Shown piece after piece: positions 23,933 to 45,937 of a stretch of 64,000 nucleotides of DNA. Below the pieces are notes generated by a model. That model was not told the DNA's origin and ran no database searches. It worked only from the letters and a program-made list of their open reading frames with translations. The stretch is from Neonectria sp. B-13 (lineage: Eukaryota; Ascomycota; Sordariomycetes; Hypocreales; Nectriaceae), in the NCBI GenBank assembly GCA_002682825.1, contig NOKP01000047.1:1-64000 (forward strand). The letters are read 5' to 3'. How positions within the stretch are numbered: the stretch's first letter is position 1; each line of letters starts with the position of its first letter. A program made the position numbers and the translations under genes.

Positions 23933-26005
23933 CTAAATATGGAAACCCAGCCCAGCACCAACACTCACACTAACCTGTATAGTGGACAAAGCCAGCTGAG
24001 CATAAGATTTGGCTTGCCTAAATACACGGTTTGTTAGCGTCAAGTATTCTTCAAGGAAACTCAAGATGGGAATCCATACCTGTCAAGTCTTAAACTAGAC
24101 AACCCACCACCGCCAAGGGACTGAGTGAGGACAAAGTTTACAGCGTACACGCCCGGAACCTCAAATCTCGTCACAGTTCCTCCAGGAGCAATAAAATGCT
24201 TGAACGCCGAAAACACAGCCTGAGGGGTGACTTGATCCAGAATGTACGGGTAAAAAGCCGGGTCCTTCACGATGATTGCGATATTTGCTGTGTCGCCTTT
24301 GTCTCCAGAGCGTCCAATAGCGATCTCGTGGAGCTTCACTCGCGATAGTCCTGAGCGGATGGGCTTGGATGATTCCGGACCAATAGCTTGCAAATGAGTC
24401 GCTGCGGGACGGATTGGCTGGCAACCTTCAGTGAAGAGTGGCACTTCTGTCGCGTCTTTCCTGCTCCCAGTGTGCGTTCTGGGAGATACTTTGCCTCTAT
24501 GGACCAAGACGCTGCTAGAAGCAAAGTTGGGACTACTCTTCGGCCGACCTGAGGCGAGAAGACATATTCCAGGGCAGCTGTTTGTCAGGAATGGTGCTGT
24601 TTCTTTGCTGAGGATGTCGAGAACAGCGCGGTTCTGGTGCCTTGCTGCGACTCTGAGCACGACTTCTCTTCGCTCGGGCTGGCTGGTGACTCGGCCGAGG
24701 CTGTGCTCTGCGCCGATGAGGATGATCTCGTAGTCTTTGGGTGGGATGGAACTGCTTGGATGACTTGCCGACGCAAGAGCATTTGTTCTGTCGATGATGG
24801 CTTTTCCGAGCACCTTTGCCTTGCTTTCGGCTTCTTCTCCACTGACGAGAATGTCTACCGTCAGTCGATACCCGTGCTGTTCGACAGCAGTGCATTTTAG
24901 CCAAGGGGTTGGCGGTTTTCCCTTCGCTCCGTGCACTTGGACGACGCCATTGTCCACCTGTTCGAGACGGACTTGGCTCATATCCACCACAACATCAGGC
25001 AAGGCATAATTCTCAGGGTCAAGAACCTCGTACAGCATCTGTTCACAAACGCCTCGCTTATCCACAATACCTCCTGTTCCATCTGGTTTCGAAATGAGGA
25101 AACTGTTGTCGTCGTTAAATGTCAGAATAGGATATCCCATGTTAGACCATCCGCCGTGAGGACTGAAGGCCGAAGTCCTCCAGTCCGTGTAGTTGCCGCC
25201 AGTTGCTTGACTACCACACTCGATAACATGACCAGCGAGTGATGCAGAAGCGAGTTGGTCTAAACTCTGTTGATCTGCGGCATATTTCCAGCCGTATTCA
25301 TACGCCAAGGGGCCTACCACAAGGGCACTGTCGACACATCTCCCCGTGACCACGATGCTGGCCCCTTCTCTGAGAGCAACGGTGATAGGTTCCGCTCCTA
25401 GGTAAGCGTTGAGGCTTAGAAGCTTATTGTCCTTGGCAAAGAAGCCCTCTCCCGACCCAGCACCACTGAGGGGATCGAAGGTCTCAAAAGCGCCCTCCTC
25501 CATCAGCTGGTCCTGTTTTGGGAGAAGGTCATCTCCAGAAACAGCGGCGACCGTCACTTTGTCACCGAGGCCCCGCTGTTGAAGATGTGCATCAATTGCA
25601 GCCTTCAATCCAACGGGGTCTAGTCCTCCCGCATTGGTGACGACTTTGATCTTTTTCGTCAATATACGGTCAAGATGCGGGATTAGTACAAGGTCGAGGA
25701 ACTCGGATATGTAGCCGCCATTGGGTCGCGATTTGGCTGAACCAGACCTTGCTGAGCGTGCCAGGAGGCCCATCGTCAACTCTGTGAGGTAATTAGTGCC
25801 TGGGCCAAATTGAAGCAAAGAAGTACTCACCCGCGAGGTAGTCAGCGACGACATAGTCAAGTTGGGGCTCATCGGAGTCGAGGAATTGCTTCACTGCCGA
25901 GGGGGAATCGCCCCAGAAGGCACTTGATTCATCATATTAGCATCTAATGGGTGATGGAAAGCTTGGGACTGCGAACCTGTAGCAGCCGATTCTTACTTGC
26001 TTCAT
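23933..26005 (-). CDS. AtuA-family (DUF1446) protein of acyclic terpene utilisation type
   Basis: Four exons: 25,977-26,005, 25,831-25,922, 24,080-25,781 and 23,933-24,017, giving 635 residues. Splicing restores the family N-terminus with S-A-F-W-G-D, and the E-L-T-M-G-L-L-A-R segment. E-C-G-S-Q-A-T-G-G-N is at about 228-237. The C-terminal AtuA-like domain carries G-R-S-G-D-K-G-D-T-A-N-I at about 530-541 and the closing S-L-G-G-G-G-L block. AtuA is required for growth on acyclic terpenes in Pseudomonas, but its reaction is not firmly settled; a lyase-type role has been proposed. Seen here next to a biotin carboxylase gene on the same strand, as part of an atu-like set. No PTS1 at the predicted C-terminus. 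An in-frame ATG at 26,155 is an alternative start, and the last exon is the least certain part. Confidence 0.87.
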
Positions 26006-26643
26006 CTTGATGCCTGTTGCTCTTGTGGTACAGTGAGGCACACTCTGAATCATGGGTTTGTTGACTACTGCTGCTCTGACTTGAGGGCTCTGAAATACCT
26101 GAGCAGCCCGCAGTACCCTCGGCAGAGGAGGCTCATAGAAACTCGGTGCTTGCATCTCCGCGATGGCCGGGTAGAAAGGCTGCCGAGCGGGGACGGCAAC
26201 CCGGCCCGCGTCTGATCGGGAACCGCTGCGGGGCCGAAATGATGTGTCACTGAATTGGACGCGATTGGTGATTGTTCCCGGTTCATGGTTTTACGTTGAC
26301 GCAACAGCTTGGTCGGTGGACGAGTCAAGGAAATTGTCCTTGGTAGAGTCGCACAGCTGAAGATTCGACTCACCACAAACGACCTTGAGGCTATGAACGG
26401 GTAGTCATCAGACATAATCTTGCAATCTAAGATCAGTTGGAAGAGGAACATGCAGATTTACTCCTAGTACCTGCTGTAAGGTGCTTATAGTTTGCCAGTT
26501 GATATGCTATCTATTTCCAACTAAATCACTGAACCTTTCCTCGTCAATGCATATATGTTGTAAGTTTCTATTGCGAGACACTTGTTACGTCGGCCACTTG
26601 GAAATTGCTGGTTACAAATAAAACATGACGATTTTATATAATT
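26006..26643. other. Intergenic: 5' region of AtuA-like gene, 3' of carboxylase gene
   Basis: 638 bp of normal composition. It should contain the promoter of the AtuA-family gene and the 3' UTR of the biotin carboxylase gene. No CGGWCCG site and no RNA gene seen. Confidence 0.5.
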
Positions 26644-29115
26644 CTAGTTAAAGCTGCATAATTTAATACCCTCATTGACCGCTTCACCTTCCTTGACATT
26701 TGATTCGAACTGACCATCCCTGGACGCCGCAATAGTGATCTCCATCTTCATACTCTCAATAATCATGACAATTTCGCCCGTTTTCACTTCATCCCCAGCC
26801 TTCTTAAGAATTTGAAGTACCTTGCAAGGCATAGGCGCATTGACGGTTCCCGAATCTGCTAAGCCACCTCCAGCAATTGCCACACGCTGGCTCTCAAAAT
26901 AGGATAGCACCGAGTAGCAATTGTACTCGAGGGGCGCTCCGATGGCTGGGAAATGACAGAAAAGGCGGCTGGAATCCCCATTGTCGGCATCATTGGACGT
27001 GCCCAGGTGATCGCCTGTGACAACAAACCCAAGGATCTTGTTGCGCCCGATGGTCACTTCGATGCGACCCATCTGGCATCCTGATCCATCGCCAAAGTTC
27101 AATTTCTTGATCTGTAGGGAGTGAATCTTGACAGTGCAAGTTCTCGCGTCTGGTAGTATTCCTGCTCTGAGAGCTGTACTTAATGCGTTGTATGCCTTTG
27201 CCACCGTCGCTGAGCTGTTTGCCTCATCTTGGCCATCCTTGGACTCCTCCGCCGCGACGGGAAGTGGTGCGATCTGCACGATAACTTCTTTCGAAATGTC
27301 TTTCGAGCCAAAATTGAGGCGGCAGACTCTTGGGTCTGTATCTACCCCCAGAGTTGGCTCAAACTTCGTTATGATATCACAAGGTATGTTGACCTTGTCG
27401 AATCGCTGGTTTCGGAAGCCAGGTCGGATGCTTCCAAACATACCGCGAGACCTATCCTGACCTCGAAGCTTCCTGAGGAATATGCTGGGGATAATAGAAT
27501 AAAGATCTATTGGGATTTGCTCGTTCACAGAACCGGGGCTTCGGAGCAAAGATTCGAGGTTGGTTGGAATGAACGATGTAGTATAGTCCACTCGTCGGAA
27601 CCCCTCGTGGAGAAGACATGCCTGAAGGAAGTGCTGGTTGGTCGAAATACCGATACAGACGGTGTCTGCCAGAACGCGTACCATCTTCTGTATTGCCATC
27701 GACCGTGTGGGAGCCCAGACTACAATCTTGGCGATCATTGGGTCGAAGTAGATCGACACTCGTGCTCCACTCTCAATAGCAGTCTCGAAACGAACATTCT
27801 CCTGGCTTCCGTTTGCTGTGGGATCCCATACACGAATAACACCGTGTTGAGGAGCAAAGTCTCGCTGGGGGTCCTCCGCGCAGAGTCTGCACTCAATGGC
27901 GTGCCCATTCTGAGGGATCTTTTGCAGTTTATTGAGGCTTGCTAGACTGCCACCCGAAGCCACAAAGAGTTGAAGGGAAACGATGTCGAGTTCGGTGCAC
28001 TCCTCCGTGATGGGGTGTTCGACTTGAAGACGGGCGTTGACCTCGAGGAAATAGAAGTTTCCAGCAGCGACATCGAAAATGAACTCAACTGTGCCAGCTC
28101 CCTCATACTTCAGCAGCTCACCGATCTTGACGGCTACCGCGCACATTGCCTCTCTCTGCTCCTGATTGAGCCAAGCACAAGGACTCTCCTCAATGACCTT
28201 TTGGTGCCTGCGCTGTACCGAGCAGTCTCGTTCCCAAAGAGAAATCACTTTTCCGTGACTATCACCGAGAATCTGAACCTCAACATGCTTTCCTGCTTCG
28301 ATGTACTTCTCCAAGATGCAATCTGCAAGTCCAAATGACCGCTTGGCTTCAGATTGCGCTCGGTTGAACTCAGACTCGAGAGCAGACTTGTCGCGGACAA
28401 TTCGCAGGCCCTTTCCACCCCCTCCTGCCGAAGCCTTGATCATGACAGGAAGCCCGATCCTTTCGGATTCTTTCTCTAGGTCCTCAAGCTTTATGCCTTT
28501 GGATGAGCCGGTGAATCCTGGGATCAGGGGCACGCTTGGTTCGTATTTGTCGAGATACTCCTTGGCTTCGCGTTTGTCTCCCAGCGTGTTGATGGCAGAG
28601 GAGGTAGGTCCGATGAAGATGATTCCAGCAGCTCGTACTGCGTCTGCAAAACCGGAATTTTCGCTGAGGTAGCCATATCCAGGATGGATTGCGTCGGCTC
28701 CAGCATTGACGGCAATGTCGACCAGAAGCGAAATGTTTAAGAAAGGATTTCCTTCTGGTTGATCCACGGAGCCAAGGTTGATTGCTTCATCAGCCTCTGA
28801 GACGTGTCTCGAGACGGCATCCCTGTAAGAAAGTTAATGGAATTGGCCGGCTGAAAGGCGTCACGGGAGAAAGGCTCACTCATCGGCGTAAATGGCGATT
28901 GACTTGATCTGAAGCTTCCGGCAGGTAGCTATGACGCGGCATGCGATTTCGCCACGGTTTGCGATAAGGACACTCTTGATGCGTCGGGTTCCGTCTTCCT
29001 GGAGAGGCACAGGCGCAACCCAGAGAGGGCTACGCGTGGGATATGCGCTTGTTTCCATTCCAAAGGTTCGGATGAGTGAGTTAAGGTGAGTAAAATTGGC
29101 GTCAAATGAGCCCAA
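26644..29115 (-). CDS. Acyl-CoA carboxylase alpha subunit (biotin carboxylase + BCCP)
   Basis: Two exons (28,880-29,115 and 26,644-28,822, intron 57 bp) encode 804 residues. Biotin carboxylase N-domain near 46-150 ([10 protein letters not shown]), ATP-grasp glycine loop G-G-G-G-K-G at about 212-217, [10 protein letters not shown] at about 339-348, a variable middle region, and a C-terminal biotinyl domain with E-S-M-K-M-E, the biotin lysine being about residue 771. This is the architecture of 3-methylcrotonyl-CoA and geranyl-CoA carboxylase alpha subunits. It would make carboxybiotin for the partner carboxyltransferase encoded at 30.9-32.9 kb. Unlike that partner it has no PTS1 (it ends S-F-N) and I see no PTS2. 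A second in-frame Met lies about 20 residues in. Acyl substrate cannot be fixed from sequence alone. Confidence 0.93.
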
Positions 29116-29493
29116 AAAATTACACAGGCTAGGTCCTTGATCGTGCTGCTCATTCTGTGTCTGGGAAAGCTGGGTTTGAATAGCACCTTTACTCTCTTGG
29201 AGAAGCTCCTTAAGTGGGTACGGTTATCCACGTCCGAAGCCCCGCTCGCACCGCCTCCGGACCGAAGACGGACCCCCACAGCCCCACTCTGGCCACCGAG
29301 GGATGAGGCCTGGTCAAGATTGCTGGCAGAAGCCTCGGATGGCTAATGCCATGAGGTGCCGTGTTGGTAGAAGATTATTGGGGAAGTGCTCTGTTTGCTT
29401 ACAAAGTTCCTAACCTTTCGATGACTGTCTAGTAATGTCCAACGCTCATCAGACTACACTGCCAAAATTCTCTCAGTCGAAAATCCCCCAAGC
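29116..29493. promoter_or_regulatory. Bidirectional promoter region, carboxylase alpha / hydratase
   Basis: 378 bp separate the divergent starts at 29,115 and 29,494, so both genes must be driven from here. It holds one CGGACCG palindrome (29,258-29,264). Confidence 0.6.
29258..29264. promoter_or_regulatory. CGGWCCG palindrome (CGGACCG)
   Basis: Inverted CGG/CCG triplets with one base between, the type of half-site Zn2Cys6 proteins bind. One of seven copies in cluster promoters. Confidence 0.4.
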
Positions 29494-30348
29494 ATGGCTG
29501 CTCAAAATCATCTGCAATGGAGCCTGGAAGTCCAACACGAAGATATCGCCATTTATCGTTCTGGAGTTAACCGAAAAATTGTTCTGAAACGGCCCCGTAA
29601 CGGCAACGCCCTCACCACCGCCATGGTCACCCAGCTGACCAACTTCTACCGTGAAGTGGCAAAAGATAACTCAATCTCGCGCATCGTCCTCAGTGCAGAG
29701 GGCAAGTTCTTCTGCACTGGCATGGATCTCGGAAAGTCCAGCACAGCCGTCAGCAAAGGCGATGATGCTGCGACGAATGAGTACCAGAGGTTTATTGGCC
29801 TCTTTCAAGCCATTCAAGAAGCGCCCCAAGTCACCATAGCCTGTATCAACGGGCCATGCTATGCTGGAGGGATTGGGCTTGCGTTCTCATGTGACATCCG
29901 ACTTGCGGTTTCATCTGCGAGTGTTACATTAAGCGAAGTCAAGTTGGGGTTATGCCCAGCAATCATTTCCAAGTATCTCATCCGCGAATGGGGCCCCGCC
30001 ATGACACGAGAAGCCATGCTGTCGGCACGCGCTATCTCGATGGGGGAGCTAAAAGGCATTGGTGCAGTTCATGGCCTTGCGCAGGATGCCCCTGGGCTCG
30101 ATCAGCTTTTGGACTCGTACTTGAGGGGACTTCGTTCTTGCGCACCGGGCGCGTCTGCGATGTGCAAGGAGGTGGTGAGGGGGGCTTATGACTCCGAAGG
30201 TGAGACCAAGCAAGACCGGACCATTCGGGGAGTGTTTAAGACTATGATGGGACCGGGTTCAGAGGCATCTATCGGAGTTCGGAACTTCCAGGCAAAGAAG
30301 AAAACCGACTGGGATGGTCTGAGAAATGGGCAGACTTCCAAGCTTTAA
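29494..30348 (+). CDS. Enoyl-CoA hydratase, LiuC/AtuE-like, peroxisomal (PTS1 SKL)
   Basis: Single exon, 284 residues, crotonase fold. Oxyanion-hole segments F-F-C-T-G-M-D-L at 72-79 and G-P-C-Y-A-G-G-I-G-L at 120-129. The position of the first catalytic glutamate of classical hydratase (Glu144 in rat) is Gly128, while the second is kept (Glu148 in S-E-V-K-L-G-L). This pattern followed by C-P-A-I-I-S resembles bacterial 3-methylglutaconyl-CoA hydratase (LiuC) and AtuE rather than crotonase proper. It ends in S-K-L, a canonical peroxisomal signal. In an atu/liu-like path it would hydrate the glutaconyl-CoA product of the neighbouring carboxylase. It is divergent from the carboxylase alpha gene. 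The subfamily assignment is inference from motif resemblance. Confidence 0.9.
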   Translation: MAAQNHLQWSLEVQHEDIAIYRSGVNRKIVLKRPRNGNALTTAMVTQLTNFYREVAKDNSISRIVLSAEGKFFCTGMDLGKSSTAVSKGDDAATNEYQRFIGLFQAIQEAPQVTIACINGPCYAGGIGLAFSCDIRLAVSSASVTLSEVKLGLCPAIISKYLIREWGPAMTREAMLSARAISMGELKGIGAVHGLAQDAPGLDQLLDSYLRGLRSCAPGASAMCKEVVRGAYDSEGETKQDRTIRGVFKTMMGPGSEASIGVRNFQAKKKTDWDGLRNGQTSKL

Positions 30349-30888
30349 AATGGAATGAGTGGCTGGGCCAGGTACGCTTGTATATGGATCATTTATTCGA
30401 TGTAGCATTGCATATGAACACTTCTTGAGAAAAGATATCACCGTTTAAACAAGTCGTACCCTCATCTCCTCGTCATGTCTAAATTCTGCCTCTCCCTGCT
30501 TTGCTTCGCTCGAACTCGATCCGTATCTAAAATTTGTCCCTTTTCTCCTAAGGCTCTGAGACGCTTTCATCTACACTTCAAGTGTTTTCTAGCGCTACTA
30601 GCAGAGTTGAGGTTTACCGCCATTTACTCGACCGATTATTCACCAGCCTCGGTTGCACTTTGCCGCCCTTATTAACGACACGGCTAACACGGCGAACTGA
30701 GCCGGTTTGGGGCGGGCCCACTCTTCGGTCCGAAGGCCGCGCCAACGAATAAGGACGGAACAGGCCCCTTCTAGGAATGGGAAATAAACAGAGAAAAATA
30801 CCCCAAGTCGCTGCGTCGGTCCGTATCCGTGCGTACTAACTGATACCATACCATTATTGAGCCAGATTAGATAGCCCACGAAGCGATC
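30349..30888 (+). promoter_or_regulatory. Upstream region of carboxyltransferase gene with two CGGTCCG sites
   Basis: 540 bp between the hydratase stop and the carboxyltransferase start. CGGTCCG occurs at 30,726-30,732 and 30,817-30,823, that is 163 and 72 bp upstream of the ATG. The second lies within GGTCCGTATCCG, which also holds CCG-N3-CCG. Confidence 0.5.
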
Positions 30889-32915
30889 ATGTTGGACATC
30901 GGAACCTATCCAGTTGGCGCTGCCAAATTGGATTTGCGACAGCCCATCTTCGACGACAACCGCACGTCTTGGACTCAAGTGTTGGAAAAGTTCAACAATG
31001 CTTTGGACTCTGTGAGTTCAGAGGGCGAGTTAGTCACCCAAAAGCGGCATCAGACTCGCGGGCAATTACTCGGTAAGTTTACTTTCTGATGTCTTCACTT
31101 GACATTTTTGCTGATCCATATGCGAAAAGCGAGAGACCGTATTGCACTGCTCTTGGACCATGACTCTCCATTCTTGGAGCTAGCACAGTTTGCAGGGTTT
31201 GGATTAGACTCTACCCCTTGTGCCAGTCTCATCGCGGGGATCGGAAAGATTAGGTAAGTTAAGTCTGCGTCAATTCTTCCATTCCGTGACGGCTCTGACC
31301 GAGAACAGCGGCAAAATTTGCATGATCATTTCTCATGTTCCTTCCATCAAAGGAGGCGCTTGGAACGAATTTACAAGTAAACCCCTTCGCTTTGACGCAT
31401 CTGCCTTTTGTCGCGAACTGACAACCCACCCCTTTAGTTCTGAAGCACAATCGGATCACAGAGATCGCAACTGAGAATGACTTGCCAATCATTGGGCTCG
31501 CACAAGCTGTAAGGCATATCTTTATTCCTTCTTACAAGTCAAAATAATCTGATTCCACTCGAAGGCTGGAGCATACCTCCCTCAGCAATTCAGAGTCTTC
31601 CACCGAGCAGGCCAGATGTTTCGAGACTTAGCCCGGCGAAGTCAAAATGGCAAACCTTCATGCAGTGTTGTCTTTGGGTCATCAACAGCCGGCGGGGCTT
31701 ATTTACCAGGGATCTCTGACTACACAATATTTGTCCGAAACCAAGCCCAAGTTTTCCTTGGGGGGCCACCGTTGGTCAAGATGGCAACTGGCGAGGAGGT
31801 TGACGCTGAAACTCTGGGAGGGGCTGAGATGCATGCGACTATTACCGGACTTGCTGATCAAATTGCTACTGATGAGTGGGTTTGACCATTTTGCTAATAG
31901 ACAAGTTATTAACGTGTGGCCACAGATTTGATGCAATCAGAAAGGCTCGCGAATGGGTCAAGTCTCTCCAATCACCGTCATCGACGACTAAGAGACTCCA
32001 GCAACCTTTGACGCCGAGATACCCGATTGAAGACTTGCTGGCGCTTGTCAACCCGGATATTCGAAAGCCGTTTGACATGAGCGAAGTCGTTTTGAGATTG
32101 GTGGACGATTCACGAGCCGCGGCGTTCAAGCCCACCTATGGCAAAAATCTGTTAACCTGCTGGGCCGAGATCCATGGTAATTGGTTTCGCCACCTCGTTG
32201 CTTGAAATTTAAGCCGAACTAACTTTGTGGTCTCAGGATATCCGGTGGGTATCATTGGCAACCAAACTCCTGTAATTAACGCAAATGAAGCGTGCAAGGG
32301 CGCACAGTTTATCCGACTATGCAATCAGAGGTAGGCCACAACTTCATATCCCATTTATACTACCAAGGGTACAAATCTAACAACCACAGAAACATGCCCA
32401 TTGTCTATCTCCATAACGTCACTGGCTTCATGGTTGGCTCCAAAGCCGAGAGAGAAGGCATCATCAAGAAAGGTGCGCAATTCGTCTCAGCAGTCAGTTG
32501 CTCCAAAGTCCCACAGATCTCGGTAATCTTGGGATCTTCATACGGTGCCGGAAACTATGCCATGTGCGGTCGGTCGTACCAGCCTCGCTTCCTGTTCACT
32601 TGGCCTTCTGGACGATGCAGCGTAATGGGCCCCGACCAGCTGGTGGGAGTAATGGACATTGTTAAAGCGGGGAGTGCGAGCAACAAGAACAAGGTCCAGT
32701 CACAGAAGAAGCAGAAAAAGGACGGCGATGCTAGAAACAAGACGCGTGACATGGTGGAGAGGGAGAGCGAGTCCTACTATACGAGTGCCAACCTTCTTGA
32801 TGACGGGATCATCGACCCACGGGATACGAGGGAGATTCTGGGAATGTGTTTGGAGATTGTTCATGTCACAAACGTCAAAGGAGCTGAGATCCATCAAGGA
32901 CTTGCGAGATTGTAG
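30889..32915 (+). CDS. Acyl-CoA carboxylase beta subunit (carboxyltransferase), PTS1-like ARL
   Basis: Eight exons: 30,889-31,072; 31,130-31,253; 31,309-31,376; 31,438-31,508; 31,565-31,875; 31,926-32,176; 32,237-32,330; 32,390-32,915. Together 542 residues, the usual length for methylcrotonyl/geranyl-CoA carboxylase beta. The N-half carries [16 protein letters not shown] and G-S-S-T-A-G-G-A-Y; the C-half carries [22 protein letters not shown] and [12 protein letters not shown] lysine-rich stretch sits near 450-470. The last three residues are A-R-L, which fits the PTS1 consensus (S/A/C)(K/R/H)(L/M). It would transfer carboxyl from the biotin subunit to a branched enoyl-CoA. That it works in peroxisomes is inference from the tail and its neighbours; the known fungal methylcrotonyl-CoA carboxylase is mitochondrial. 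Confidence 0.92.
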
Positions 32916-33659
32916 GTGTTAGGCTACCTAGTACGTCCCCGGATGATCATTGAATAGAAATTGAACCATGCAGAGAATAGCCAAATGGGATAAAATAACA
33001 AACCAAGAAACAGCAAATACTCGAAGCATCGTCGCATTAATATGCAGTAATCATGAATTGTTCGTAGAAACGTTTGAACCATCACAAACTGGTAATTTCA
33101 CGCAAAGCATTCAGTGTTTCGCGAGATCAACCCTTTAATAGTTGAAACAACAAGGACTGAACTCTGGCCACGTGTGATTCTTGGAATATTCCGCTTCTGC
33201 AAAGTCTGAGCTATGTCCTCTCTGCAGGGTAGGTCGAGGTCGACCCAGTCGTCACGGAGTGGCGACCCAAATAACTTTATTTATGTTGGCCATAATGGGA
33301 ACTTGAGGATGCCTTCCTTAATGCGTTGAAAGCCTTGATGAAGCTGACTTCATGAACAAGTCCGCGTACTGTATACCCCTTGTCTAAGTCGATCAAATTG
33401 ACGAAGAAATATGGTGCCAGGCTGTCTGCAATATATTTAAAGGTTCCTTGACTGCTTTTGTTGCTCGTGAGTCTTGCACACGACAATAATTGAGTTTATT
33501 ATCTCTACCCAAACCAATTCTTCTATCATGCTAATCAGAGCCTCGCTTCACCAAGAACATGGCGGGCTTCATGTGAACGTTCGGTGCTTTATTTAAAGTC
33601 TGTCCCATTCTCCTTTTGGGCTCTAGTTCGATTTCAACTGGACAACTATGTGTTCTTCA
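32916..33659. other. Convergent 3' intergenic region
   Basis: 744 bp between the stops of the carboxyltransferase and acyl-CoA dehydrogenase genes. A 69-codon minus-strand frame at 33,277-33,486 begins at TTG and is not supportable as a gene. No RNA gene or repeat seen. Confidence 0.5.
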
Positions 33660-35106
33660 CTATAACTTTGCTGTGGCCAATGCTTTGGTCTCCTGATTGA
33701 GTGCGAAATCTGTCAAGATCTCTTCACTCCCCCCTCCAACAACCATGACGCGCAAGTCACGGCTGATTTGCTCAACTCTCCTCCCCTTCCCTTGCTTCGA
33801 ATATCCAAGCCCACCCATAATCTGCTGTGACTCTCTGTTTACGCGTTCAAGTACTTGACAAGCCAGTACTTTGCAGTTTGCAAGGAGACCACCAATTCCT
33901 TCCGGCTGGGAACCGTCACGTCGTTTGGCCTGCCCAAGCATGAAGATGAGCTGTTCAAGATACGCTTGAGCAGAGTCGATGGATCTGCCAGCTGTCGATA
34001 ATTTTGCCCGAATGACTTGGTTCGAGATCAATGTTTTACCAAACGTCTCGCGGCGAATGGCATGGAGGTAAGAGTCCTCGGTACAAACTCGAGCTAACCG
34101 GAGTGCAGTGATGGCAAGCCAGATACGTTCATGATTAAAGTCTGTGTTTTTGAGTTAGAAAGCTCTTCCTGAACATCAAACGTCAAAGTAACCTACTTGA
34201 CATCACTATGGGGAAGCCCTTGTTCTCTTCTCCTACAAGGTTGTCTACCGGTACTTCAACGTCGTCAAACTCGATGTATGTGGAACCTGACATGAGGTTA
34301 GCAACCTGTTGAGGGAGACAAGGGCGGTCATTGTACCACTAGCGGAAACACCGGAGTTGTAAAGTCGCCTGCGAGTGACCCCAGGTGACGTGAGAGAAAT
34401 GATGAGAACCGAAATGCCCTTCTGGCCTGGCCCACCAGTACGAACAGCAGCGGTACAGTAATCCGCCCACAGCGCGTTCGTAATCCATTTCTTGGCCCCG
34501 TTTACAATGTATTTGTTGCCTCTCCGAATAGCTGTTGTTGTCAAACCTGCAACGTCCGAGCCAGCATCTGGCTCCGTCACAGCTAGACAGAAGCGCTGTG
34601 TCCCGTTCAAGATGTCTGGAAGAAAGCGCTTCTTTTGTTCAGCACTTCCAAAGCGGATGATCGGAGGTGCTCCGATTATGTTACCACATGCGAGGCCAAA
34701 GACAACTCCAAGGTATCCACATCGAGCGATCTCGTCCATGAAGACGAGGTCATGGAACTCATCCCACTCGGTTGGCGCGATACCGCCGGGGAGAGAAAGT
34801 TTGCCGAGATAGTCAGTTGCCAATGGAAACACTGAGGCGGCCATGAGTCCTGCCCGAGCAAATTGCTGAACAGCCTATAGCAGTAAAGTCGAGTCAGGCT
34901 TTGCAACAGTACATGAAGGGATCCTCACATACCTCGGGTGGGACAATGCCGTTCTGCTCCCATTCTTCGCAGAAGGGTGAAATATGTGTATCAACATACT
35001 TTCTGACTTCATTCCTTAGTCTAATGTGACTTTCGTTGTAGTATGGGCTGTCTCCCCTAGTATACCACAAAGGGTCTGCAAAAGGGGCGGGTGAGTACTT
35101 GGACAT
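33660..35106 (-). CDS. Acyl-CoA dehydrogenase, PTS1-like AKL
   Basis: Four exons: 34,933-35,106; 34,337-34,874; 34,197-34,286; 33,660-34,141, giving 427 residues, full length for the family. The flavin-binding segment A-V-T-E-P-D-A-G-S-D and the F-D-D-V-E-V-P segment are present. The MCAD-type catalytic Glu position near the C-terminus is Gly (V-G-G-G-S-E-E-I). A glutamate sits instead in N-H-E-R-I at about residue 272, where isovaleryl- and long-chain-type dehydrogenases carry the base. It ends T-A-K-L; A-K-L fits PTS1. Likely role: introduce the 2,3-double bond in the branched acyl-CoA before carboxylation, as AtuD (citronellyl-CoA dehydrogenase) or LiuA do. An in-frame upstream ATG at 35,139 would add 11 residues. 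Confidence 0.92.
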
Positions 35107-35885
35107 GTTCAACGTCAATGATGTTAGCTGTAAAGGCATGAGCCTTGAGTGACACGGGAAGGCGGACGGAGCACCCTAGTCCTTCACATTCATTTGGGAA
35201 TCTACTCTGAACAAAACCTGGGTTGTATGTTAGTAAGCTAATGGCGTGGTGACATTTGCCGACCCGTGTAGCCGTGGATATGGTGCGTAGGCGGAGAAGA
35301 CGGCAATGGACGGTTATGCTCCCGTCCCAAACCCCGCTCAACCGGCAGTACACCAAACTCTGGGCGGACTTCCTCGAAACTCTCAGACTCATCCGATATC
35401 GAACGTGGAGATTTTTGCTTTGCGGGGTAGTAGTGCGTTAAGGCTTAGAAAAGCTGCTTGTGAGTAGTTCGTGACGACACACGCCAATTTCAGACTACGC
35501 TTGGAGTGATTTTCAAGGATGTCCGAGTTCAAAGGTCGAACCGGCTTGGCTCTTCGCATGAACTAAATTGCACGTTTCGAAGAATGGCACCAGTTGATCG
35601 CTTGAAATCTCCTCAATGCTCTTTCTTGATAAGTCCATGTTTTAACAACAATTGTTGGCTGTTTTAGTTAAGTGTCGTAGTCCACAGTTGTGCACACTGT
35701 CAGAACTTTAGATCATCTCACTGCTTCTTTACCCGCATACAGATCAAACGCACACTTAATTAAGGCTACAGCACTTATAACATCAATTGCATCAATTAAA
35801 TATGACTTTATTCAAAGTACAACGAGACTTCTAGATCTGCTGTATTGAGACTTGGCCGACCATGAATTCTCCACTGGGCACATAT
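35107..35885. other. Intergenic: upstream of acyl-CoA dehydrogenase, downstream of MFS gene
   Basis: 779 bp. It contains the dehydrogenase promoter, with GCCGTGGATATGG near 35,268-35,280, which resembles GCCACGGATATGG upstream of the hot-dog hydratase gene near 39,219-39,231. No open frame of interest. Confidence 0.45.
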
Positions 35886-37708
35886 TCAAGAAACATATCG
35901 GAACAGAGGCGACTTATCACCCATCTCAATGAGCTCATCTAGGGAGAGATTGTCAGAATTTTCGACCATAATTTCACTTTGTGGCATTCCAACTTACCCT
36001 CAGTGAACCGCGCTAGAGTCTCGGCCTCGGGAATCTGGTCTCTCTTCTTGTTGATTGATTTGACAGAAAACCTGAGAATGAGAGTGCAGATGATTCCAAG
36101 AATCAAAATCCCGAGAGAGAAACCATATCCCAGCCAGTAGTGCGGTGCCTGTTTTGCGAGAAAGATGTTTGATCCCACAGCACCACCAAGGTTGCCAATA
36201 GTCATCAATAAAGCCATTCCAATAGCTCGTTTGAATGACGGGGCGAGATTGTTCCCCACCCAGGAAATACAGCCGATAACAGCGGGATAGAGGCCGCTGG
36301 GGATACAGAACAAAAAGGCGTAGGTCAAACCCGGGAAGCGTGGGTGGGGGGTGGACAACAAGCCGACGAAGCCAACCAGGGCAATACTGAACGGTATAAC
36401 GATGAAGAGCCATCGGTTTCGGTATCTGTCCGCCATTCGAGCAAAGAAGAGGGTCATACAGGCACCCAGGAAGTAGATGGGGATGGTGAGAAGCTGAGCC
36501 TGTGCGGCAGTGTAGCCAAGCTCCAAGATGATAGTCGGCGAGGAAAAGCTGAAGCCATAAATGCAGATGCTAAGATCCGATCCCGTGTTAGTACGAACCA
36601 ACACCTGGAACTTTGAGATATACCTGTTTCCCCAGTAAATGACGCAAGCAAGATAGATCTTCCAATCCAGCAAAGCTTCCTTGAGGTATCTCCACTTGAA
36701 TGAGCCCCCTGTCCCAACTCGACCCGCCGAAGTTCCAGCATCTTGCTCAAGGCGGCGGTTGATGATTTCCTTTTCAGCTGTAGTTAAGAAGGTGGCAGCA
36801 TTCGGCGAGTCAGGAAGAGTCCAAGGGATGGACATGCCGATGAGCACAGTCAAGATACCTTCGAGAATAAAGATCCATCGCCAACCCCCAAGGCCGCCAA
36901 CACCGTCCATGTGTTGAATAGCAAAGGCCAGCAGACCAGAGAATGCGCCCGCCAGAGATGCTGCAGAGAAGAAAATAGCAAGACGAGTCTGCATCTCCCA
37001 TCGGCAATACCAGGTCGTCAGCAGGTAGGTAGCGGCAGGGAAAAAACCAGCTTCAGCCATGCCCAGGAAGAAGCGGGTTACGATCAAGTGCTCGTAGGTC
37101 TTGACGATGCCTTGGAGTGTAAGAACCTGTTGAGTAAGATGTCAGACGCTGCAATGTCATCAAATAGAGAGCTGTTATTACCGTGCCCCACGTAATGACT
37201 AGAACCGTCATCCAGATAGAAGGTCGCATGAGTTTGAGGACGATGTTGCTGGGAACCTCAAACAAAGCATACGGGAAGAAGAAGACGGTCAAGACCATGT
37301 TGTATTGGGCGGGCGTGAGACCAAGGTCTGCATTCATACCCGCGACTCGAGCGTTGCCAATGTTCGAACGGTCCATGAAGGAGAGGATGTAGAGCACAGT
37401 CAAGAGAGGCAGCAGCCGCCAATCGACTTTGCGCATGATCTTCTTGACTTCTGCATCGTCATATCGAGGCAACTGAAGAGAATTACGGTTAGCCTAAAAG
37501 GATACAATAGGAATTGAGCACGTACATTGGATGCCTCAAGCCCTGTATGTTCATCGGCAGAGCCATTTCCGCTGTGTTCAAGGTGCGCCACACCCTGGCT
37601 GTCATAGGCAAGTTCCTTCTCTGCCATGTTGATCGATGTAGTAGAGTCAGAGTCAAATCTTGAGCATTCTGGATCGAGTGTAGAGATTGAGGGGATAGAA
37701 ATAATCAT
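35886..37708 (-). CDS. MFS transporter, anion:cation symporter (ACS/Dal5-type) family
   Basis: Five exons: 37,526-37,708; 37,182-37,472; 36,624-37,126; 35,998-36,569; 35,886-35,938, giving 533 residues. Features: R-K-V-D-W-R-L-L-P before TM1, F-M-D-R-S-N-I-G-N-A after TM1, R-F-F-L-G-M-A-E-A-G-F-F-P between TM3 and TM4, and the family tail ending G-D-K-S-P-L-F-R-Y. These are hallmarks of fungal carboxylate/vitamin carriers of the allantoate-permease group. Sitting between the dehydrogenase and hydratase genes of the cluster, it probably imports the acid that the pathway degrades, but the substrate is not readable from sequence. The start at 37,708 gives the longest form; a second in-frame ATG at 37,627 is equally plausible. 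Confidence 0.9.
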
Positions 37709-38014
37709 CTAAATCAGACCAGGAAAAGACTCTTTATCTGCGTCCAATAACCCTGGAAGGTCGTGGATGATCCGGGGAAGCGAAGCATGGCGTCTGGGGA
37801 AGCCCCCCTCACCCCGCAATCCATTCGCGGAGAGGGCAATCTAGACTCTCGCCCAGCCGGGGATGCTTTGCCGTGTTCGGCCGTGTTGACGTTCCCAAGA
37901 CTCGGTTTGCCCCTGTCACTTCCACGCAAATGCGTGGCACGTCCAATTACAAAGCCGTGATGAAGAAGCCTAGCAAATATTGGACATCGATTGTCTGGCA
38001 TGAAAGAGTCCTAT
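37709..38014. other. Intergenic, MFS promoter and hydratase 3' end
   Basis: 306 bp between two minus-strand genes. No distinct motif recognised. Confidence 0.4.
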
Positions 38015-39123
38015 TTACAATTTGCTCGAGGCCGACGTGACCGAGGTTCGGATCACGGCTTTACCACTGCTCAAACACTGCTTGCCCGTCATTACAACCT
38101 TCGCCTTCCAATAGATTTCCTCCCAACCGTTTGCATCAGATTCCGTTCTCCAAATCTCAGTCTCAATTTGGTCCCCAGGTCTAACGGGACCGGCAAACTT
38201 GGCCTGGAACTCCCCAAGGTTCTCGGGCTTGCCACCACCAAATATCCGAAGCAATTCATGAGCAACCCGATTATATGCATAGACGCCGTGCAATATCATA
38301 CCACCGTATCCCATCTCCTCACCGTACTCTGGCGTAGCATGCAAAGGGTTGTAGTCTCCATTTAAGCTACCGCTTATTAGCCGACGGCTTCATTGTTACT
38401 TCGTAGACCAATCAGTGACTCTTACCGATAAAGATGGGCGGCATTTGCAGGCATTTCCAGTCTAACTATCTCATCCGGTGCTCGATCTGGAGCAGGGGCA
38501 GGGGGCTCTTTGGATCCTCGCGGTCCGCCCCAGCCCCCCTGCCCAACATAGAACCAACTTCCAACGATTCGGGCATATACCTCACTAGTAGAGGCGTCAA
38601 CGAGCGAATCTTCCGACTCTACTACGGTTCCAGCCTTCCCTTTATCGTAGACTCCAGTTATCTTGGATCGGAACTCAAAATCCCGACCGGCCGATGTGAC
38701 GGGAAGGGGTTTCAGTAACTGGATAGATCGTTGTCCATCAACCAGAGACTTTGGATCCAAATCTGGCAAGCCCGATATTTTTGTGGATCTCTGTGAAGAG
38801 AAAAAGTCAAGAACCTCTTGATTGTCTAGCTTGAAGACTGGCTTGTGTTTTAGAAGAATGACACCTCGCAGTCATTCAGGCGCTATGTTCAACTTACCTA
38901 GAGCGAGGGGATACGTCGGAAAGACTGAAAACTTTTCATGAAGTTCCTGTGAAATAAATTCAGTCATTGAGTTGGACGTTGGCTTGAGACTGTGTGTACT
39001 CACGTATACGAATTGCGGTTCCTCCGCACCGCACCCGATGCTAACGTTGAAGAGCAGCACATCGCGCTTCAGCCACGACACCTTCTTCGGGGGGTACGTG
39101 AAACCAACACCTGGACCTTTCAT
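38015..39123 (-). CDS. MaoC-like / hydratase-2 hot-dog enoyl-CoA hydratase, PTS1 SKL
   Basis: Four exons: 39,004-39,123; 38,898-38,946; 38,426-38,837; 38,015-38,366, giving 310 residues, the size of a stand-alone hydratase-2 double hot-dog unit (as in the MFE-2 C-terminal part). The N-terminus M-K-G-P-G-V-G-F starts at a well-placed ATG. The hydratase-2 signature is present as N-G-D-Y-N-P-L-H, with the catalytic Asp at about 198 and His at about 203, followed by I-L-H-G. It ends S-S-K-L, a canonical peroxisomal signal. It should hydrate trans-2-enoyl-CoA to the 3R-hydroxy product inside peroxisomes. The second intron has two possible acceptors; I chose the 60-bp intron that fits the family best. 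Confidence 0.9.
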
Positions 39124-39627
39124 ATTGAATCGAATGGAATACGGGTCTCGAACTGAATGAACCAAGGTGGCGCTTCAGACTTGTTGGCGCTCTTAAGCTA
39201 TCCTCGATGGTCCTGTTAGCCACGGATATGGACTCCGGGGACTAATCTGAGTTCAGGGACAATGGTGGTATACTAACCAGAAAAGCATACCACTTCGCCT
39301 ACAGAAATCCGGAATGATATTGCTGTCGTTGTAAGCCGAGGGTGATTGATGAGACCTGTATTTGTGGGGTAAGGTGTGGGGACGGCAGTATAGCCGTCGC
39401 GGTGGGCGGCAACGAGATCCGGGCTACCGTCGGATGAAGAGACGCCCTGTTCCACAGTCGCAAACCAGGAAGAAAGAACGGTTTTCCTTGGTTCAAATGA
39501 ATACAGGCTTGGTGTGCGCTGTCATTGATATTTGTGACTTGTGACTTATTTGCGTGTTTGGGAGGGAATGGCAAGAAGTTGTCTGCGCCTGGTATGACCA
39601 GGTACTATTAGATTGAGGTACTACCTT
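39124..39627. other. Intergenic, hot-dog hydratase promoter
   Basis: 504 bp between minus-strand genes. It includes CGGATATGG near 39,223-39,231. No CGGWCCG site. Confidence 0.4.
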
Positions 39628-40513
39628 CTAGAGCTTACTATCAATCCATCTCGGTGTCCTCTTTTCTTTGAATGCATCCAAACCTTCTTGCATGTTCGGC
39701 CCGTCGTATATGCGACTGCTCCAACCATCCAGAAACAACCGGCTGCCATCCGCCACTCCCAAAGCCTCCCAGCCAAGCTTCAGTCCTTCTCTAGTAACTA
39801 TGGCAGCATCTGGGCTATTCGCCGAAATCATCTTTGCAAACTCTAGTGCCTTGTCGACAACGCTCTGTCCTTCGTCCACCACAAAATTACAGACTCCCCA
39901 TTCCTTGAACTCCTGTGCTGTCACGGTTCGGCCCGTCAGGGCTAGTTCCGTTGCCCTCTGGCGACCGGCTGTCTTCATAATGCGAGGAAGGGCGCCTGCA
40001 AAGGGAGTAACTCCGCGCTTGACTTCTGGTAGAGCAAACGTTGCGGAAGGCGAAGCAATGACCATGTCGCAGTTGACGACCATTTCGCAACCTCCTCCGT
40101 ACGCAGCCCCGTTCACGGCTGCGATGACGGGCTTCTTACCACTTCTCAATGATAGTCCACCAAAGCCGTTTTCGGGTAGTCGCATGCGAATACCCTTCTT
40201 GTTATTTTCCATCCATTCTGTTGTTGACCGAAGTCAGCTGAGTCCTGTAAAACTTCTCGTCGGGAGCATTACCTTTAAGATCTGCTCCGACGCAGAAGGC
40301 CTTGCCAACTCCACTGATGATGGCAACGCGAAGGCTTGGTTCCTGATCAAACCATCTAAACACAGAGTCAAGCTCTGAACTTGCCTCTAGAGACAGGCTG
40401 TTCAGACTGCGCGGCCTGTTGATCAGGACCAAGAGGACGCCTTGAGCCGGCAGTGATAGTTGGCAGTGTTGCGTGCTGGGTAAAGATAGCACCGTGGGAG
40501 ATAAGGCAGTCAT
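39628..40513 (-). CDS. Enoyl-CoA hydratase/isomerase (crotonase), PTS1 SKL
   Basis: Two exons (40,273-40,513 and 39,628-40,217, intron 55 bp) encode 276 residues. Both catalytic glutamates of classical enoyl-CoA hydratase are in place, 20 residues apart: Glu125 in G-G-C-E-M and Glu145 in L-P-E-V-K. The oxyanion segment F-C-V-G-A-D-L-K is at about 73-80, the split codon after it being joined by the intron. It ends D-S-K-L, a canonical PTS1. This second crotonase could act in ordinary peroxisomal beta-oxidation of the shortened chain, complementing the LiuC/AtuE-like one. It is divergent from the acyl-CoA synthetase gene. Confidence 0.92.
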
Positions 40514-40812
40514 CGTAATATAGAAATATGGTTTATTGAATAATGATCAGTATTGTCCGCATTTAGGGACGTGGTCAAAGAATGGAAGTCTCTTTATCAT
40601 CCTTAAGGCGGTCCGGTTGCCGTGCCGCTCCGCGAGCAGAGACGGGTCGGCAATATGACGGAACCCAACCCGTGTCGGGTAGCCGGTTTGACCGGTCGAA
40701 GACGGGTCACGGGTAAGACGCCACCCAGTGAACAATTACTTAGAGGAGTGGACAAGAATAAGATAACGGGATTTTGGTCACACTAACAAGTTCAATACAA
40801 GACATCCTTACC
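40514..40812. promoter_or_regulatory. Bidirectional promoter, hydratase / acyl-CoA synthetase
   Basis: 299 bp between divergent starts. It contains CGGTCCG at 40,609-40,615 and further CGG/CCG triplets (e.g. CCGGTTTGACCGG near 40,683). Confidence 0.5.
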
Positions 40813-42776
40813 ATGGAAATTCTCACAACCCGGGAGCCGAAGAGCAAGCTTTCGCTTGTGCATGGCTCTACCACACCTGAACTCTTCCGGTTGACTTTTG
40901 GTCAGCTCGTAGATCAACAAGCCGAGCGACATGGCTCGAAAGATGCCCTATTGGTTGGCTGGACCAAGGCTCGTCTGAGTTTCGAGGGTCTGAGCCAGCG
41001 ATCCAAGGAACTGGCACGCGGCTTGCTTGCCATGGGCGTATGCAAGGGCGATCGCGTTGCTATTCTATCTGGAGATGATGAGAGGCTCGTTGAGCTCTTC
41101 TTCGCCGTGGGGAGAATCGGCGCAGTCTTGGTTATTCTGAACAAAACTTATACCCTGCGCGAGTGCATGCGAGCTCTTGAGCATACAGGTATGCATTGCT
41201 TCACAATCACTTTCACACGTGATCGTTTACTAAAAGCGTGTGATAATATCTAGACCCCTCGGTCTTATTCATCGCCGATGTCGTTAATCGCAAGCCAGCA
41301 CTCCCCATTCTCGATCGATTACAGGCCCAGCGTGGCGGGCTAAAGCACGTCGTTTTGGTACGTTGGGACGAGGTTCCGGTACGGTCAGAAATGACTTGGG
41401 ACGACGTGCTACAAGGCGCCAGGTCTGTGACCACGAGACAACTTGAAGAAGTCGAAGCTTCGGTCGATATCGACTCTGTTGTCAATTTTCAATTCACCAG
41501 CGGCACTACTGGCTCACCGAAAGCAACTATGCTTAGCCACTTGTGAGTGCCACTGTCGTGACAGCATGCAACACCTGAAGCTAATGTGAGATTCTTTGTA
41601 GCAACATCATTAACAATGGCTTCATGATCGGCGAGTACTTGCAATTGACTACTGAGGACGTTCTCTGCTGTGGGCCGCCTCTGTTCCACTGCTTCGGACT
41701 TGTTGCCGGCTTGATGGCTGCGTTCACTCATGGAGCCACAATCGGTTTCGCGGGACGAGACTTTGATGCCGCACAGGTGGTCGACATGCTGGTGAGGGAG
41801 CGATGCACTGGCTTGCATGGCGTCCCAACCATGTTCATCGCCATCTTGAAGCAACTTGACAAGGTGGGCGTGACGATCGACACGATAAGAACTGGCATCG
41901 CCGCTGGAACAAAGGTACCACCTGCCCTGCTCAGTGAGATCCAAAAACGCCTGGGATATCGGCACGTTGCAATCACTTACGGTACGTCATAAGATTCTGG
42001 TTCAGACTTGTATACAGGCTAACATCACGCCAGGCATGACCGAGACGTCGCCCGCGAGTTTCATGACAGAAGTATCCGACACTCTAGACCAGAAGCTCTT
42101 CACCGTTGGCAGAGCTATGCCTCACGTCGCCGCAAAGGTTGTCGACCCTGACAATCGCATCTTACCCATCGGCGCTCGCGGTGAACTTTGCGTTTCAGGC
42201 TATCTCCTACAACAAGGCTACTACAACGCTCCCGAGAAAACCGCAGAGGTAATGATCAGGGACGATAATGGGGTCTTGTGGATGCACACGGGTGACGAGG
42301 CAACGATCGACGAGCAAGGCTACTGTCGGATCACCGGTCGTATCAAGGACATCATCATTCGAGGTAAGCTTAACACCCGAGAGGCCAAGACACAAGTGGA
42401 TGACTGGCTGAAGCTAACATTACCAGGCGGCGAGAATATTTACCCTCTCGAGATTGAAGAGCATCTGCTTCACTACCCAGCCATCAATAACGCCAGTGTC
42501 GTGGGCCTGAAGGACGAAAAATACGGAGAAACTGTGGCCGCCTTTCTCCAGACACGACCCGGCCATGATAAGCCGTCCCATGAGGCTGTCAGAACTTGGA
42601 TTCAGGAGGAGCTGGGAAGACACAAAGCCCCGCAGTATACATTCTGGGTTGGCATGGCAGGGGATATCACGGAGTACCCGGTGACAGGAAGCGGCAAGAT
42701 CCGAAAAGAAGTGCTCAGAGAGATTGGGAATAAACTTCTTGAGCAGGACAAGGAAATGCCCATGGCCAAGCTATAG
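40813..42776 (+). CDS. Acyl-CoA synthetase (AMP-forming), PTS1-like AKL
   Basis: Five exons: 40,813-41,188; 41,254-41,542; 41,602-41,981; 42,034-42,363; 42,427-42,776, giving 574 residues. AMP-binding P-loop T-S-G-T-T-G-S-P-K at about 207-215, Y-G-M-T-E-T-S at about 348-354, T-G-D-E-A, the hinge G-R-I-K-D-I-I-I-R-G-G-E-N-I-Y-P, and the C-terminal G-S-G-K-I-R-K with the catalytic lysine. This is a complete ANL ligase, probably for short or medium branched or aromatic acids. It ends M-A-K-L; A-K-L fits PTS1. It would start the pathway by CoA-activation in the peroxisome. The start ATG (40,813) is the first in frame. Confidence 0.93.
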
Positions 42777-45249: not shown

Positions 45250-45937
45250 GGCCTCAGTTGACACGACACGAGAGGAGAATCTGTAGACCTGCAGCAAAGA
45301 AAGAATCGAGACGCAGAAGTAGAATCCCCTAACGGGATGACGAAGATCTGAATTGCCTGTCCTGACCACCGATTACCCACGCACAGTCGCATGAGTTTAC
45401 CTCTTCCATCCCGTGATTTGCGGGGTATGATGATTTTAGTTCCGCCCACAACGCTAAGCGTGGTAGCTTCTTGAAAGTGCGGAGGTTCTCCATGTTGTCG
45501 GGGTGGACGGCTTGGCGACTAGTGGGCTCAATGGCCTCTTCCGCGGGTTCCGTTGAGCAGTTTGAGCCCACTCTTCAAACGCAATCGAGTATCTGAAGTG
45601 CTATCATTACTGCTTGACTACAACACCAGACAACACGTCTTCAATTGCCCTCCCAATTCATTCTGCAATCGTGTACCCAGTTCTCCGAGAAATGAGGGGC
45701 CTCGCAAAGCCCTTGGAATCTCACCGGAGAAGTAACGGCTATCCTAGGCTAAAAGCCGCCCCTCGGACCGACACCTTCCTCCGAGTCACGGCTGCGCGGC
45801 TCTATAACCGTCCCCACTCCCCGCGCATACGGTCCGCTTACGGTCCGCATTTTGAGTATAGGCGGGGAAAGATCCATAGTTACACGCTCGCCCGTTTTGA
45901 GGAGATTTGATCCTTTGCGGTAGTAAATTCCATCATA
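45250..45937. promoter_or_regulatory. Bidirectional promoter between two Zn2Cys6 genes, three CGGWCCG sites
   Basis: 688 bp between divergent starts. CGGACCG at 45,764-45,770 and CGGTCCG at 45,830-45,836 and 45,841-45,847; the last two are a near-direct repeat CGC(A/T)TACGGTCCGC spaced 11 bp (one helical turn). The density suggests auto- or cross-regulation of the two regulators. Confidence 0.55.
45830..45847. promoter_or_regulatory. Paired CGGTCCG palindromes one helical turn apart
   Basis: Two identical heptamers with start-to-start distance 11 bp, 91 bp upstream of the plus-strand regulator ATG. Confidence 0.45.

Follow-up and report, generated by a model that had tools for sequence, protein, structure and literature searches.

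A peroxisome-addressed, Atu-like gene cluster in the fungus Neonectria sp. B-13 and a candidate lyase role for AtuA

Nine adjacent genes in the genome of the fungus Neonectria sp. B-13 encode an AtuA protein, the biotin carboxylase (BC) and carboxyltransferase (CT) subunits of an acyl-CoA carboxylase, an acyl-CoA dehydrogenase (ACAD), an acyl-CoA synthetase (ACS), the hydratases CRO1, CRO2 and HD, and a carrier of the major facilitator superfamily (MFS). They lie at 23,933-42,776 of the window analysed here, which is the first 64 kb of the 227-kb contig C69 (NOKP01000047.1; genome total 60.9 Mb). Judged by sequence, the cluster probably encodes a peroxisomal catabolic pathway that resembles the bacterial Atu pathway. 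Its substrate would be a carboxylic acid with a beta-methyl branch, most likely an isoprenoid one.

A first-pass annotation had proposed a fully peroxisomal cluster that mirrors the bacterial atu and liu operons and is distinct from the mitochondrial leucine route. Its atu half is strengthened by our analysis, and an atu-like, peroxisome-addressed cluster distinct from the leucine route is supported by conserved type 1 peroxisomal targeting signals (PTS1) on CRO1 and CT and by gene linkage in other fungi. The liu half is rejected, and the signals do not extend to the whole cluster. The assignment of a lyase reaction to AtuA is the bold, testable part of the proposal.

Peroxisomal targeting signals

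Six of the nine proteins end in a PTS1 tripeptide, each where it had been annotated: SKL at 30,348 (+), ARL at 32,915 (+), AKL at 33,660 (-), SKL at 38,015 (-), SKL at 39,628 (-) and AKL at 42,776 (+). The binomial chance of at least six in nine at this composition lies between 2e-14 for a strict pattern and 2e-11 for a loose one. The yeast consensus [A/S/C/P]-[K/R/H]-L, as given in an excerpt of PMC13343957, served as the yardstick. No canonical PTS1 is present on AtuA (..GFHI), BC (..CSFN) or the MFS carrier (..RYVS), and with AtuA and BC lacking it in this genome the description as fully peroxisomal was not borne out.

The annotation had staked its interpretation on conservation of the tripeptides in orthologues, and for the two proteins tested in this way, CRO1 and CT, the outcome was favourable. 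Among the best 120 of 256 CRO1 matches, 116 carry a standard PTS1, mostly AKL, SKL or PKL, and the remaining four end in HKL, ANL, AML and NKL. Likewise, 116 of the best 120 of 6053 CT matches end in ARI, ARM, ARL or ARF; of the other four gene models, two are short and two over-long. These sets, together with the best 120 of 7175 AtuA matches, include metagenomic proteins, some of which may be non-fungal. For ACAD, HD, CRO2 and ACS, conservation was judged from paralogues in this genome, which show PTS1-type ends on contig C39 (ACAD, SKL; ACS, AKL) and on contig C1 (HD, SKL; CRO2-like hydratases, SRL and SHI; ACS, SKL).

Two CT relatives ending in GMQHLARL raised the suspicion that the ending was simply inherited, and bacteria were therefore used as a control. 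In a GTDB genome scan, the 80 bacterial CT relatives end in FRM (75), FRL (2), FRH (2) or FRP (1). With a PTS1 in none of the 80, mere bacterial inheritance of the ARL end was rejected and the fungal ending is therefore taken as derived; ARM is one residue away from FRM.

The closest AtuA relatives with a complete last exon end in AHI, TRL, AHL and similar tripeptides. A loose pattern, [SACPT][KRHN][LMI], fits 14 of the 48 closest rows, many of the others being exon-truncated, versus 57 of the 72 lower-ranked rows (P0289-P0360), which are mainly early-diverging fungi and some other eukaryotes. AtuA thus looks ancestrally peroxisomal, with a signal that has worn in this fungus. Across the same 72 rows, AtuA ends in AKL or SKL in 41 (Mucoromycota, chytrids and some protists), which suggests an old peroxisomal role.

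Gene linkage in other genomes

Synteny elsewhere in fungi, proposed earlier as a check, was found in the form of near-consecutive locus tags that link AtuA, CRO1 and CT. They occur in Fusarium nematophilum (AtuA 000781, CRO1 000783, CT 000784), F. torreyae (010687, 010689, 010690), F. sarcochroum (AtuA 1133, CRO1 1131, CT 1130), F. decemcellulare (AtuA g2667, CT g2669) and Polytolypa hystricis (AtuA 07610, CRO1 07612), the last a member of another fungal class. The closest named matches among the best 120 relatives each are those of F. nematophilum (CT 90%, AtuA 81%, CRO1 82%).

Linkage also extends to bacteria. At 80 bacterial loci picked by similarity to the fungal CT alone, 70 of them at least 12 kb long, tblastn located AtuA at 66, BC at 79 and ACAD at 73 within the fetched flanks. 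The locus of Streptomyces globisporus L055 combines AtuA, CT, BC and ACAD (tblastn) with a CoA synthetase, a hydratase and a TetR regulator (Pfam). Such actinobacterial AtuA-CT-BC-ACAD groups, some with ACS and enoyl-CoA hydratase, hold the same families in one locus as the fungal cluster, with no match to the 3-hydroxy-3-methylglutaryl-CoA (HMG-CoA) lyase family found nearby. They differ in a CT without PTS1 and in sequence, with identities of about 48% for CT and 32% for AtuA.

Within the Neonectria genome, a second cluster at C39:426,400-437,600 contains CT (..ARM), a fusion of an HMG-CoA-lyase domain with a hydratase (..SKL), ACAD (..SKL) and ACS (..AKL). It resembles the window cluster in these families and their PTS1-type ends, and differs in the fused hydratase and in the absence of AtuA matches from the contig and of BC matches from the 20 kb covered there. 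Two AtuA matches lie at C1:781,000-801,000 together with a CoA synthetase, a hydratase-2 and a pair of CRO2-like hydratases, several of them with PTS1-type ends. The stretch C53:328,000-343,000 holds a further fusion (at 328k) that ends in FGANK, where another exon may follow, and, at a distance of about 12 kb, an AtuA paralogue that ends in ISLA. In total, the genome holds about ten strong and two weak AtuA loci, mirrored copies counted once, versus none in 14 control genomes.

AtuA as a candidate lyase

AtuA carries the Pfam domains PF07287 (E 1.5e-116, 390.2 bits) and PF23544 (E 9.9e-25, 87.5 bits), both above their cut-offs. A single-sequence search returned no solved relative, and a profile search returned one: AtuA is homologous over its whole chain, including both domains, to a chain deposited as citramalate lyase (9evf). 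The other alignment rows hit merely a ferredoxin-like piece of AtuA (346-465) and were not used. AtuA shares the fold of both domains with the citramalate lyase CmlA/CmlB (PDB 9erq, 9evf), and the deposited entry of CmlA in turn calls it an AtuA family protein. The two systems differ in that AtuA is one chain and CmlA/CmlB two subunits, in sequence (16% identity) and in the citramalate substrate of CmlA/CmlB. For AtuA, whose role in the bacterial pathway has been unclear, the cluster points to a possible function. For two named fungal AtuA proteins, an excerpt of PMC12148953 proposes terpene uptake or detoxification.

The HMG-CoA-lyase domain is also carried by 97 of the best 120 CRO1 relatives. 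Because that search was limited to lengths of at most 1.75 times that of the query, full-length fusions fall outside it, and the fused forms in this count are exon-truncated gene calls. In a shared-contig comparison, AtuA and the fused lyase domain occur in a complementary manner among the relatives. Rows were taken as co-located when their contigs were equal in size, 119 of the 120 AtuA rows were used (one has no contig), and the rows are phylogenetically non-independent. Only 15 of the 120 CT rows entered this check, five paired with an AtuA row, four with a stand-alone CRO1 and none with the fused form.

It is quite possible that AtuA performs another step and that the cut is made by an HMG-CoA-lyase-family enzyme from another locus (C27, C41, C39 or C53). 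Other genes of this family are present in the genome, the C39 fusion with its SKL end could work in the same organelle, and the excerpted text of PMC4097962 names LiuE, and not AtuA, for the lyase step in Pseudomonas. The homology of AtuA to a deposited lyase chain and its complementary occurrence with the fused domain speak against this alternative, as do the bacterial loci. A tblastn search for an HMG-CoA-lyase gene at the 80 CT loci found none, with unproven sensitivity, and the search was for that reason repeated with the Pfam model in ten of these genomes, all with AtuA. In none of the ten did a family match lie closer than 20 kb to the AtuA that is linked to the carboxylase, contig ends permitting. 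Both searches come without a positive contrast, because eight long bacterial loci without AtuA lacked the lyase as well.

More broadly, and tentatively, the cluster may represent a widespread fungal peroxisomal pathway for terpene acids. Here AtuA would be a C-C lyase of the citramalate-lyase superfamily, swappable with the hydratase-fused HMG-CoA-lyase domain, and CT would have become peroxisomal through the change from FRM to ARM, ARI or ARL.

Carboxylase, hydratases and dehydrogenase

As set out in an excerpt of Jurado and colleagues (PMC4673880), the beta subunit of methylcrotonyl-CoA carboxylase (MCC) carries Phe191 after a three-residue insertion, that of geranyl-CoA carboxylase (GCC) lacks the insertion and carries Gly, and an exchange of this residue moves the preference from one substrate towards the other. 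The window CT shows neither MCC feature: Ala164 occupies the Phe site, and, as in GCC, the insertion is absent, with a gap opposite it. One CT relative (P0116) aligns gaplessly to GCC 5ikl at the insertion site. The pocket residue in the best 120 CT relatives is Gly (104), Ala (12), Thr (3) or a gap (1), with Phe in none of the 119 that have the site, and all 80 bacterial relatives have Gly without the insertion. A separate MccB-type gene of this genome, on C13, has both the Phe and the insertion. CT is described as working like GCC and not classed as GCC, because of Ala164 and because, over the whole sequence, the fungal CT profile scores MCC-type chains higher (about 555 bits) than GCC 5ikl (508 bits).

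The best solved relative of CRO1 is 4zu2 (113 bits, 1.1e-31), followed by 4k3w (1.1e-25). The closest structure is thus an isohexenylglutaconyl-CoA hydratase (AtuE), one that is itself named putative. The match to 5jbw/5jbx (LiuC) reaches 73 bits, well under that of 4zu2. In ACAD, the stretch NFNHERIW contains a Glu, and a Gly-rich loop, VVGGGSEE, lies near the C-terminus. Isovaleryl-CoA and long-chain dehydrogenases use a Glu of that helix, and the medium-chain enzyme has its catalytic Glu in that loop, so that ACAD would suit a branched substrate.

The diagnostic pocket (PMC4673880) shows just that more room is available. The same chemistry could serve another beta-methyl-branched substrate than citronellate or geranate; sesqui- and diterpenoid acids, prenylated side chains and alkylated side chains of sterols are examples. 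We regard this as unlikely. The bacterial AtuA-carboxylase loci, which are mostly actinobacterial, would agree with it; it meets no specific counter-evidence and departs from the isoprenoid-acid pathway favoured here in substrate alone.

A second, peroxisomal leucine/isovalerate (Liu) pathway, with the carboxylase acting on 3-methylcrotonyl-CoA and the remainder mirroring mitochondrial leucine breakdown, is improbable. The slightly higher scores of the CT family with MCC-type chains are in its favour, and the Glu in NFNHERIW would suit isovaleryl-CoA. Against these points, the pocket lacks Phe and insertion throughout, the genome keeps its own MccB-type gene with both, and CRO1 resembles the Atu enzyme more closely than it does 5jbw/5jbx. 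On this evidence the liu half of the annotation was given up, for carboxylase and hydratase alike. The cluster would share gamma-carboxylation, hydration and lysis with Liu and the fungal mitochondrial MCC route, and differs from them in pocket residues, hydratase class and compartment signal.

Proposed pathway

In the Atu-like pathway that we propose, the MFS carrier would import the acid, ACS would turn it into its CoA ester, and ACAD would introduce the 2,3 double bond; this order is itself inferred. BC and CT would then carboxylate the gamma methyl group, and CRO1 would add water to the product, giving a tertiary alcohol. AtuA may split the C-C bond to release a C2 acid unit and a 3-oxoacyl-CoA, with CRO2 and the hydratase-2-type HD acting in later rounds of beta-oxidation. 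In the C39 sister cluster, which is without AtuA, the HMG-CoA-lyase domain fused to the hydratase would perform the cleavage. Piggyback import into peroxisomes occurs in general. For this reason, and because GCC is built as an alpha6-beta6 assembly (excerpt of PMC4673880), BC would probably be imported bound to the PTS1-bearing CT.

Several observations count against this pathway. Apart from the missing signals on BC and AtuA, the majority of CT relatives end in ARI or ARM, which is looser than the yeast consensus with its required final L. The CT pocket has Ala164 where GCC has Gly, and the whole-sequence scores lean towards MCC. With 96.2 bits, CRO1 falls far under the cut-off of 426 bits that NCBIfam sets for the gamma-carboxygeranoyl-CoA hydratase equivalog. 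As for AtuA, the Pseudomonas pathway has LiuE for the lyase step, 14 of the 23 stand-alone CRO1 rows have no AtuA partner, the AtuA locus at C1:781-800k has no carboxylase match, and on C53 the fusion and the AtuA paralogue lie near each other, neither with a PTS1.

The Pseudomonas atuABCDEFGH genes share with the cluster AtuA, an ACAD, a CoA synthetase, a biotin carboxylase pair with a roomy pocket and an AtuE-like hydratase. In contrast, the fungal cluster is eukaryotic, mostly PTS1-tagged and extended by the hydratase-2 and a second hydratase, and its nine genes include no dehydrogenase of the AtuB or AtuG type. Furthermore, the proposed lyase is AtuA here and LiuE there.

That the genes are instead biosynthetic, with peroxisomal enzymes building an unusual acyl group for a secondary metabolite, is hardly credible: fungal siderophore synthesis does use peroxisomal enzymes (PMC3709128, in excerpt) and a transcription-factor gene and an AT-rich block adjoin the cluster, but none of the open reading frames (ORFs) in the subset scanned showed a polyketide synthase, a peptide synthetase or a terpene synthase, and both bacterial counterparts viewed gene by gene have acyl-CoA enzymes.

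If correct, the proposal would add a biotin-dependent carboxylation pathway to the peroxisome, account for how fungi could use plant isoprenoid acids and give AtuA a testable reaction. It would also reveal a natural experiment in which two unrelated lyases swap within one pathway, and a bacterial-type C-terminus that becomes a peroxisome signal by a small change. A 2014 paper reportedly treats limonene genes in Grosmannia clavigera. In this fungus monoterpenes induce beta-oxidation genes, and the excerpted text makes no mention of a carboxylase (PMC4368105). In the open-access literature searched we recognised no paper on a fungal peroxisomal GCC-type cluster or on the CmlA/CmlB structure; an earlier description is possible.

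Gene models and neighbouring features

All nine genes were re-modelled and spliced by hand (Table 1), which confirmed the annotated cluster; all introns follow the GT-AG rule and measure 49-65 nt. Pfam names eight of the nine, and ACS is named by NCBIfam only, under its cut-off. The hot-dog hydratase of the annotation is present and was refined to an enzyme of the hydratase-2 type of multifunctional enzyme 2 (MFE-2). The annotated start, 23,933, is the exact AtuA stop when the short last exon is counted, and relatives support this exon (..QAKSYAQLALSTI..). Both the N-terminus and the last exon of AtuA match Ilyonectria P0242; the ORF is open to 26,290, yet relatives begin at MKQVRIGCYS or similar. 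BC contains the biotin site ESMKME (Lys752).

Table 1. Genes of the cluster and the adjoining candidate regulator, in window coordinates.
Gene	Position	Strand	Product	Length (aa)	Exons	C-terminus	Domain or family match
AtuA	23933..26005	-	AtuA	635	4 (26005-25977, 25922-25831, 25781-24080, 24017-23933)	..GFHI	
BC	26644..29058	-	Biotin carboxylase with biotin carboxyl carrier protein (BCCP), acyl-CoA carboxylase alpha subunit	785	2		PF00289, PF02786, PF02785, PF00364
CRO1	29494..30348	+	Stand-alone enoyl-CoA-hydratase-type enzyme	284	1	SKL	PF00378
CT	30889..32915	+	Carboxyltransferase (beta subunit)	542	8	ARL	PF01039 (E 9.8e-120)
ACAD	33660..35106	-	Acyl-CoA dehydrogenase	427	4	AKL	PF00441, PF02770, PF02771
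MFS	35886..37627	-	MFS carrier	506	5	..RYVS	PF07690
HD	38015..39123	-	Stand-alone MFE-2 hydratase-2-type enoyl-CoA hydratase	310	4	SKL	PF22622 + PF01575
CRO2	39628..40513	-	Enoyl-CoA hydratase	276	2	SKL	PF00378 (E 5e-54)
ACS	40813..42776	+	Acyl-CoA synthetase	574	5	AKL	NCBIfam fatty acid CoA ligase NF009233, 511.5 bits (cut-off 832)
Transcription factor	42906..45250	-	Fungal transcription factor, candidate regulator (unspliced, approximate boundaries)				PF04082 (43225-44232)

The MFS carrier (35,886-37,627) could import biotin rather than the pathway substrate; it may fall in the allantoate-permease-like group, which includes the yeast biotin transporter Vht1. By eye only, the transcription-factor gene shows a Cys-rich stretch near 45,060. 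An AT-rich 24-kb block (window 1-24000, GC content 0.24-0.39) with dinucleotide indices resembling those of repeat-induced point mutation adjoins the cluster start, and a flavoprotein of the amine-oxidase family (PF01593) lies past the cluster at 55,566-57,059.

On C69, four pairs of loci within 22,972-34,370 are 100% identical as reverse complements, as is one pair on C114. The paired coordinates add up to a constant (C69 and C114, and by coordinates C20, C27 and C41); these contigs appear as inverted repeats of themselves. This self-inversion is probably an assembly artefact, the alternative being a genuine inverted duplication.

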